Assembly (NCBI RefSeq): GCF_000027005.1
Contig: NC_012965.1
Span: 1,475,001-1,539,000, forward strand
Source: Komagataella phaffii GS115
Lineage: Eukaryota; Ascomycota; Pichiomycetes; Pichiales; Pichiaceae
Reading direction: 5' to 3'
Length of the DNA: 64,000 nucleotides
The notes below the pieces were generated by a model, which made no database searches, had not been told where the DNA came from, and worked only from the letters and a program-made list of their open reading frames with translations. A program made the translations under genes and the position numbers. Shown here in pieces: positions 17,941 through 20,158 of this stretch. Within the stretch, counting starts at the first letter, position 1; each line of letters opens with the position of its first letter.

Positions 17941-18494
17941 AACAGTAGTGTAATATTACGTAGTGACCGTTTCTCAGGGGAAGTCAACAGGCCAACAGGC
18001 CTACCGTAGACTTGGCGGGAAGAATGGCGCCCCGGAAGGCATTTAAAGGGGCAGTTACAATTGTTAAGCAGAATCTCCGCCTCGCTTGTCTAGACCGCTT
18101 TTTCTGGGCGGAATTTGGGATAACAATAAAAAATGAAAAAATCGTTCCATTCTTGAATCCCAAGTGTAGACCTTCCTCCTAGGGAAACAACTGTGCGGTT
18201 TTCCAAAAACAATACTTGAAAGGCACAGCGCTTTTGTGAGCTCTAAAACGACTACGTCATTTTCTCCGAAAGACGGACGGTGTTCCTCAAGATGAAATCC
18301 ATGTGCAGAAGAATTCCCCGCCGTGCATTAATTATGTGTATGTGGTGTGCACAACCGCTTATTTCTAGGGACGCCTCTCTATAATGTGCAGAAACCGGCA
18401 TTACTCTTACGAAATCGTCACCACTAAAGCATGTTCGAAAAGTTGAGTGTGTTCTCCCCCTCTTTTCGGAATTCTGACATCATCGATGCGCGGA

Positions 18495-18502
18495 TATATA
18501 AA
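18495..18502 (+). promoter_or_regulatory. TATA box of the Ada/AraC-type regulator gene
   Basis: TATATAAA, 103 bp upstream of the ATG at 18605 and on the coding strand, which is a normal yeast TATA-to-ATG distance. Confidence 0.6.
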
Positions 18503-18604
18503 AAATGCCTTCATCCCTTTCCTTACGCCATTATTATTTCTTAAGACTTCTGTCATTTTTGCAGTTCAAATTCATCTTCTCCAACCCGAATTTGCCTTTA
18601 AGAA

Positions 18605-20158
18605 ATGTCTTATCACACAGAAGCCAGCAGGTGGAATGCCTACCAATTTAACGACCCGTTCGCAGCGGACAAGTTCTTTGTTTGCAGCAGACGCACTAAC
18701 ACATGTTGCCGTCCGAACTGTGGACTGGGGTTCAACCATTCGAATGAGAAGAGCGATGTTTCTTTCGTCGATACCATAGAGGAAGCTGAGCAATTGGGCT
18801 TCTCTAAGTGCCGCTTTTGCATTGCCCCGAACCACGGGGGCGATATCAATACCCTGCAAGTGGATGTTAACCTCCTGGTCCGAACTGTGGAGCATGTCAA
18901 CCACCAAATCGGGTTCATGCCTCCATTGTTGGATGAAGAAGAGGAGAAGGAAAACACCATCAAGCACAGTTTCATCAAGAATAAGATTGTCGGCAGGAGG
19001 CAGAGCGTCCCCGACATCTCGGATTCTGGCAATGGGCTCAGCAAGAACGAAAACGATCATCTTAAGCTGATTGACCTGGCATGTCGTCACATCGCCTTGG
19101 CTGCCGCTTGTGCTCTGATGTCCTCCAAACATGCCTCTGCAGAGGAGGCTCTCATGTCCTCATCCAACGCCGATGAGAACCGAAAGAGGCGGAAGCGCAG
19201 AGGAGGAGTGTTGGGTTTCAAGGAGTTAGCTGCCAAATCCAAACTATCTCCATGGCACTTTCATCGTGTCTTCAAATCTGTTGCTGGTCTAACGCCGAAG
19301 GCGTACGGAGATCGTTGCTGCGAATATATCAGACAGCACGACGAGAAATACGGTGTATTAATTATGCCTGGAAGCACAGAGAGATCTAACTCAGTGATTG
19401 AGATTAACACACAAATTGCTAACCCATCTTCTCCCAAAATGCATAACAGCCAAGTCGAACAGGCGGAGTCTGCTTCGATGCGCCCTTCCTCAAGCGAAAG
19501 AAATCAGCATTCCCACAACGCTAACTTGGTGGCTCCTTCTACTGCAAACTCCACCACCAGCACCAGCACGAACACACAGACACTCCCAGCTTCTAACATC
19601 TCCAGCTCTCCAGCTAGCACTGCTGTATTTGAGATGGACCACAACACCATATTCGATGAAAGACCAGCTAGTGCTCCCACTTCTGGGTTCATCAGCCCGG
19701 TTTCTTACATTTCAAGCTCCGAGAAAATGCCGCAGGTGAATGTCGACTTCAACCAAATGGACTTTAACAACGACATATGGTCAATGCTGCAAAACGATCG
19801 TGCGCCCTCTCGCCAACGGGGACATTACCGTTCCTTTGCAGCACCTGAAACGATGATGGACGATTATTTAAAACAAGATAACTACGACATGAACTTTGAT
19901 TTTGGAACCGAGCCTTCGAGCCCTGTTGTGGGCCAGTCCCAGCCAGACTTTGTTTTTAACTCCAGTGTATTCCAGGTAAAGCCTCAAGCACAGCAGCATT
20001 CCATTTCCGAGGCACTCTCTCCTCGCTTAGAGACTTCACTGGGAGACGAAGATGATAATTACAACCCATTATCTTTAGAATTGGAGATACTGAATCAAAC
20101 GCAGCCGTTTCTGATGGAGGATCGCACCCCCGCTGTGGAAATTTCCACTCCCCAGTGA
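18605..20158 (+). CDS. Putative transcription factor: bacterial Ada-type zinc domain plus AraC helix-turn-helix
   Basis: A 517-residue protein. Residues ~9-76 match the Ada metal-binding domain: RWNAYQFNDPFAADKFF, then C35-x3-C39 (CRPNC) and C69-x2-C72 (CRFC). These four cysteines would bind zinc; in E. coli Ada one of them takes the methyl group from DNA phosphotriesters. Residues ~204-240 match the AraC recognition half (ELAAKSKLSPWHFHRVFK, GLTPKAYGDR). The helix before it (LIDLACRHIALAA, ~155-167) is split from it by a ~35-residue insert that carries a nuclear-signal-like RKRRKRR at 193-199. The second half is Ser/Thr/Asn-rich, then acidic and aromatic, as in activation domains. There is no methyltransferase (PCHR) domain, so it is a regulator only. 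The domain pair is bacterial in origin; the target genes are unknown. Confidence 0.88.
   Translation: MSYHTEASRWNAYQFNDPFAADKFFVCSRRTNTCCRPNCGLGFNHSNEKSDVSFVDTIEEAEQLGFSKCRFCIAPNHGGDINTLQVDVNLLVRTVEHVNHQIGFMPPLLDEEEEKENTIKHSFIKNKIVGRRQSVPDISDSGNGLSKNENDHLKLIDLACRHIALAAACALMSSKHASAEEALMSSSNADENRKRRKRRGGVLGFKELAAKSKLSPWHFHRVFKSVAGLTPKAYGDRCCEYIRQHDEKYGVLIMPGSTERSNSVIEINTQIANPSSPKMHNSQVEQAESASMRPSSSERNQHSHNANLVAPSTANSTTSTSTNTQTLPASNISSSPASTAVFEMDHNTIFDERPASAPTSGFISPVSYISSSEKMPQVNVDFNQMDFNNDIWSMLQNDRAPSRQRGHYRSFAAPETMMDDYLKQDNYDMNFDFGTEPSSPVVGQSQPDFVFNSSVFQVKPQAQQHSISEALSPRLETSLGDEDDNYNPLSLELEILNQTQPFLMEDRTPAVEISTPQ

Follow-up and report, generated by a model that had tools for sequence, protein, structure and literature searches.

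Bacterial AdaA proteins combine the Ada zinc domain with AraC domains and lack the transferase. In E. coli Ada, according to the part of a review that deals with this protein, the zinc half uses R45 and R71 to bond with the A box, the B-box contacts are made by F114, H115 and R118, and methylation of C38 abolishes a charge clash with the backbone (PMC4437013). Among fungi, the AraC-type HTH (IPR000005) is included in Table 1 of Shelest 2017, which covers DNA-binding domains typical of fungi (PMC5415576), and AraC-type factors are called abundant in a passage on Ascochyta rabiei (PMC5470089). SaraC of Stereum hirsutum, described in 2022, is a bifunctional regulator and O6-methylguanine transferase for which DNA binding and demethylation were reported; in the available portion of that paper, the authors state that the function of this category was unreported in any eukaryote, and the same paragraph calls Ada a fungal transcriptional regulator, with two references (PMC9769804). 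The available portion of Shelest 2017 gives no account of the yeast Ada-type family (PMC5415576), and our searches of the open-licence literature, some of them blunt, found no functional account of it. AraC-type and Ada-like proteins of fungi are already known as classes. The new point made here is the zinc half of the yeast proteins, in which, as judged from alignments, the cysteines are kept and the bacterial DNA-side residues are mostly lost.

The window, the whole 64,000-nucleotide stretch of Komagataella phaffii GS115 DNA that we analysed, lies on contig C3 of the 9.2 Mb, four-contig genome, and it contains a gene with the following features.

18605..20158, + strand: whole gene, one open frame of 517 aa (ORF and translation)
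18626..18826, + strand: Ada-type zinc domain, aa 8-74 (PF02805; 1zgw superposition)
18860..18937, + strand: yeast-specific conserved stretch with a helix, aa 86-111, VDVNLLVRTVEHVNHQIGFMPPLLDE (model; alignment A1)
18995..19012, + strand: linker motif RRQSVP, aa 131-136 (RRxS count against shuffles)
19055..19120, + strand: AraC helix 1, aa 151-172, ..LACRHIALAAA.. (invariant residues in A1; model helix 147-184)
19181..19207, + strand: basic stretch RKRRKRRGG, aa 193-201, candidate nuclear localisation or DNA-backbone patch
19217..19318, + strand: single AraC-type HTH and the start of the next helix, aa 205-238 (HTH_AraC 4.2e-4; model)
19370..20155, + strand: tail, aa 256-517, candidate activation domain (composition)

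Alignment A1 consists of 25 orthologues hand-picked from the listed matches plus the K. phaffii protein, and in it the gene start lines up with orthologue starts of type MxYSTE. A reading of the DNA made without database searches (the sequence-only reading) had proposed an Ada zinc domain with four cysteines joined to an AraC half. Profile searches recovered both, the second below its cut-off: Ada_Zn_binding (PF02805) matches residues 8-72 at 5.5e-16 (58.8 bits against a Pfam cut-off of 23), which places the protein in that superfamily, and HTH_AraC matches residues 206-234 at 4.2e-4 (20.8 bits, cut-off 26.6). We regard the AraC half as sound despite its sub-cut-off score because phmmer against solved structures at E<=1 returned matches to four E. 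coli Ada sequences alone, and in 1wpk, 1zgw and 1u8b the alignment takes in both stretches, zinc and HTH; because, in alignment A2, HTH_AraC is recognised at E<=0.01 in 92 of the 94 rows; and because the best structural match of the predicted fold, which covers residues 1-255 of the 517-aa protein, is DNA-bound E. coli N-Ada, 1u8b. The next matches are 1zgw, which superposes on the model over 72 residues at 2.3 A, and 1wpk; the rows below these N-Ada entries, mostly AraC proteins or helical bundles, were left out. In NCBIfam the bifunctional Ada model comes first, but its 54.2 bits fall far short of the cut-off of 345. Going by these matches, the protein is related to the N-terminal half of bacterial Ada.

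The zinc ligands are C35, C39, C69 and C72, C35 being equivalent to the E. coli methyl acceptor C38. The claim that they are spaced as in E. coli Ada holds within the two pairs (CX3C and CX2C) but not between them, where the gap is 29 residues (C39-C69) rather than 26 (C42-C69, numbered through the phmmer alignment). Similarly, the proposed AraC recognition helices were recovered for the first HTH by Pfam below its cut-off and by phmmer, A2 and the N-Ada fold, but a second AraC HTH was found neither by Pfam on the whole protein nor in the model of residues 1-255, which has one HTH and one helix. The transferase part had been called absent, and indeed Pfam finds no PF01035 (the O6-methylguanine transferase domain) in the 517-aa protein; the genome's single match to this domain lies in a separate gene, MGT1-like, on contig C2, with a PCHR motif. 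A profile search of the genome found just one Ada zinc domain, the one described here, and a search with HTH_18 gave no match at E<=0.001, the half-length HTH of this protein included.

E. coli Ada (1u8b, 1zgw, 1wpk) has PF02805 and an AraC HTH; the K. phaffii protein differs from it in having no detected second HTH or O6-methylguanine transferase, no equivalents of R45, R67 and R71 in its zinc half, where T34 is kept as T31, and a long S/P/N-rich tail. The protein is longer than the bacterial Ada P0147 by 69 residues from the last zinc ligand to the conserved ACR of helix 1, and by a further 33 from that ACR to the HTH. Bacterial AdaA has the same two domains and likewise no transferase, yet an AdaA-like ORF of 247 aa (L116) keeps the threonine and the Arg residues at 45, 67 and 71, whereas the yeast protein is without those arginines. 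SaraC is, by its published description, a basidiomycete protein with the transferase that the K. phaffii protein lacks (PMC9769804, in part). The AraC-type HTH factors of fungi belong to class IPR000005 (PMC5415576, in part).

Part of the family's importance lies in its conservation in many yeasts, among them Candida-type species and the industrial host lineage. A search with the full protein found 206 relatives at E<=0.001, the best 120 of which include Kuraishia, Ogataea, Pachysolen, Candida, Metschnikowia, Brettanomyces and Pichia; a search with residues 1-245 found 42, including Wickerhamomyces and Yarrowia; and a search with the divergent member P0136 found 126, the best 120 of which add Saccharomycopsis, Blastobotrys and Trichomonascus. 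From these searches we gathered 185 proteins, nine bacterial-type (P0147-P0154 and P0185) and 176 yeast-type by resemblance, a number that sits poorly with the earlier statement that AraC folds are rare in yeasts, as does the listing of the class as typical of fungi (PMC5415576, in part). The suggested link to methanol or formaldehyde also fared poorly, since the named relatives include many Candida-type and Metschnikowia yeasts and not only methylotrophs. PF01035 is present on none of the 176 yeast-type proteins, going by the precomputed Pfam column; a direct scan of 94 aligned rows, which does not give row identities, found 8 matches, and 8 of the rows are bacterial. P0133, filed under the basidiomycete Cerrena zonata, resembles a Candida-type yeast member, possibly through contamination or mislabelling.

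In line with the sequence-only reading, the nearest non-fungal relatives found with residues 1-245 are bacterial Ada proteins, those with a transferase domain being matched at 2e-11 and weaker, and in a tree (LG+G4) the yeasts stand apart from the sampled bacterial Ada with 100% ultrafast bootstrap, on a branch of 0.58. The tree was built from the zinc and HTH pieces, 104 columns for 62 bacterial and 39 yeast rows, 19 of the latter chosen and 20 picked at random. Motif patterns decided which bacterial sequences entered, and 25 of 80 loci and one of 8 proteins (P0150) did not fit them and were left out. Since other fungal Ada proteins stand outside it, this tree describes one yeast group against bacterial Ada rather than the route into yeasts. 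None of the 13 pattern matches in viral contigs encodes a relative, and the plasmid records hold two Azospirillum ada genes, related through the zinc half only at 35-38% identity.

The two groups differ sharply in the residues of the zinc half that face the DNA in bacteria. For this comparison we left out rows that did not fit the four-cysteine pattern, namely 5 of 80 bacterial loci, P0185 and 18 of the 176 yeast-type proteins. In the bacterial Ada rows, which were partly gathered through an HTH pattern, T34, R67 and R71 are each present in 83 of 83 and R45 in 80, with K in the other three; hence all four residues are kept in 80 rows and three of them in 3. Because of the HTH pattern, we used the zinc-domain profile to draw a second bacterial sample. 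It covers 60 genomes from the phylum to which L004, an Acidobacteria-type contig, belongs, and 30 of them had a match; among the 30 of 38 matches that were read, T34 and R67 are again present in 30 of 30, R71 in 25 and R45 in 24, and 11 of the 30 ORFs lack the PCHR transferase motif. Going by this conservation only, T34 and R67 may serve DNA contact as well. In the 158 yeast rows, by contrast, position 71 is R in one and H in 39, position 67 is R in 5 and K in a further 24, and T34 is T in 23 and lost in 135. R45 is still R in 56 of the 158, 43 times within a CDAR sequence, so that some yeasts keep one A-box reader. None of the four residues is kept in 77 yeast rows, one in 77, two in 4, and three or four in none. 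The K. phaffii protein keeps one, T31 (T34 of E. coli), and has G42, S67 and F71 at the R45, R67 and R71 positions; with G42 and F71, it is missing both of the arginines by which the methyl-phosphotriester sensor reads the A box. Net charge of the core follows the same division, with a mean of +6.0 (range 3 to 9) in bacteria and -0.83 (range -7 to 4) in the 158 yeast rows; the K. phaffii core, at 0, is less acidic than the yeast family mean. Given that it has lost most of the residues by which the bacterial version touches DNA, the zinc part is probably no longer a DNA-damage sensor.

Three of the five left-out bacterial loci (L038, L071 and L075) are, like P0185, Ada-transferase proteins; of the others, L055 gave no frame with both motifs and L057 was left without assignment. 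In L038, L071, L075 and P0185 the later zinc cysteines are replaced (CRPSS/CRASS, RPSRRA-type) and arginines 67 and 71 stay, which on sequence comparison makes them a mirror case, the reverse of the yeast pattern. A further set of bacterial zinc-domain ORFs (L092, L094, L095, L098, L103, L104, L108 and L112-L114), 458-543 aa long, has neither PCHR nor the Ada-type HTH pattern; we assume that these may be Ada-AlkA fusions.

The AraC half is, in comparison, almost unchanged. The model places the HTH helices at 205-211, 216-227 and 231-249, and W217, H218 and R221 correspond to E. coli F114, H115 and R118. The His and Arg readers are kept at H218 and R221, but both were built into our search pattern; only position 114 was left free, among W, F and Y, and all 175 matched yeast-type proteins have W there. 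Much of GGVLGFKELAAKS.LS.WHFHR.FK..G.TPK.YGD is invariant across A1, together with C35, C39, C69 and C72, as are D157, A159, C160, R161 and H162 of helix 1. Ahead of the HTH, a [KR]3GG motif is found in 174 of the 176 yeast-type proteins.

Other parts appear to have been added. The stretch at 86-111 sits within the 69 residues by which the protein exceeds P0147; it includes a model helix at 88-102 (pLDDT 96 for the block 91-100), and its L91, N99, F104 and P107 are invariant in A1. The linker motif RRQSVP, which we take to be PKA-like or 14-3-3-like, belongs to a class that is enriched in this position: RRxS occurs in 66 of 158 linkers and is absent from 92, compared with a shuffled mean of 3.2 and a maximum of 9 in 200 shuffles, and RxxSxP occurs in 59 of 158 compared with a shuffled mean of 2.4, both counts being inflated by shared descent. 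A looser pattern, [RK][RK]x[ST], is found in 81 of 158 linkers but also in 49 of 158 tails. The tail has a high content of S, P, N, Q and T (composition over aa 251-517), and at about aa 475-507 it carries an acidic-hydrophobic stretch.

We propose that the protein is a sequence-specific yeast transcription factor that would contact DNA through its AraC half, with the zinc module decommissioned as a sensor, and we judge this reading to be on balance probable. The AraC half is likely the DNA reader, with the HTH and the adjoining basic patch carrying DNA binding and a target that is probably B-box-like, with a GCAA-type core. From its composition, the protein may be expected to enter the nucleus, and the C-terminal tail may activate transcription; the RRxS(x)P site in the linker could be an input for a kinase such as PKA. 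The zinc module would persist as a folded ZnCys4 core that stabilises the protein or provides a protein or regulatory contact, and would not act as a methyl-phosphotriester repair sensor. This would be an example from nature of a DNA-damage sensor in which the sensing half appears to have been detached from DNA and the DNA-reading half has barely changed, and the family permits direct mutational tests of which half carries specificity.

An alternative possibility, which we consider unlikely, is that the zinc thiolates are a direct chemical sensor, for an electrophile, an oxidant, a methylating agent, an aldehyde or a metal, with no need to touch DNA: modification of C35 would change the protein, and the AraC half would report to target genes. 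Consistent with this, the four-cysteine pattern is present in 158 of the 176 yeast-type proteins, several of the other 18, six Yarrowia-type models included, have their start beyond the zinc domain, and an extra cysteine, C34, adjoins C35 in the K. phaffii protein as in 21 of the 158 yeast rows. However, strict conservation of the four cysteines fits a structural centre as well as a reactive one, P0179 has S at the fourth ligand yet keeps its HTH, and the six Yarrowia-type models have no zinc part. In its fullest and equally doubtful form, this possibility would have an early budding yeast capture a bacterial suicide repair sensor and strip it of its repair half and its zinc DNA contacts, leaving a kinase-regulated activator whose ZnCys4 thiolates sense a chemical off DNA; if true, this would be a new eukaryotic use of the Ada domain.

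Several members of the family depart from the common architecture. The six models from Yarrowia and similar species (P0137-P0142) start just downstream of where the zinc domain would be and keep the linker RRAS and the HTH; their missing zinc part could be either a domain loss or a missed first exon. P0177 has the four cysteines and no P37, and P0169 lacks part of the zinc domain. P0179, in addition to S for its fourth ligand, has T for P37 and an intact HTH, and P0144 has no recognisable zinc site; on their sequences, these two are natural separations of the zinc and HTH halves.

The sequence-only reading had suggested that the protein may respond to DNA methylation damage through methylation of a cysteine; as in Ada, a methyl group would pass from the lesion to C35 and switch on DNA binding. 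We consider it improbable that this activity of Ada was retained. CRPxC, CxxC and C35 are kept, the K. phaffii protein has the T34 equivalent, and its fold matches the methylated N-Ada/DNA complex 1u8b; nonetheless, R67 and R71 are lost in nearly all of the 158 yeast rows and T34 in 135, and mean core charge is down by about 7 units. A zinc module without the arginines and most of the positive charge, even with ZnCys4 kept, is a poor candidate for phosphotriester repair or for an electrostatic switch. The E. coli-type Ada site was taken as AATN6GCAA, and it is absent from the 1127 bases upstream of the gene, a result that is uninformative because only 0.2 sites are expected by chance, and from the 700 bases ahead of the MGT1-like gene; together these are a weak argument against a retained sensor. 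When spacings of 5-7 are allowed, there is one AAT/GCAA site upstream of the gene, at 18572 on the minus strand. Lastly, it is very improbable that the zinc module has newly turned into a DNA-binding domain, as was also suggested, and a constitutive one: it does share a protein with a DNA-binding HTH, and the yeast-specific residues Y3, A12, D17, P18 and F24 are invariant in A1 (D17 and F24 are common in bacteria too), but across the 158 yeast rows its core is near-neutral to acidic on average, ranging from -7 to +4.

The gene is located among a ferric-reductase-like gene, a ubiquitin-conjugating enzyme, an ORF with no Pfam match, an LSM protein, glycogen synthase and an ABC1-type kinase. Its GC content is 49.1%, compared with 41.7-46.7% in the five neighbouring ORFs that were checked; despite this difference, we reject recent transfer or contamination because orthologues occur across yeasts. 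Within 18431-18604, ATG frames begin at 18431, 18486 and 18505, the last two of which run past the main start, and it is possible that they exert translational control over the gene.
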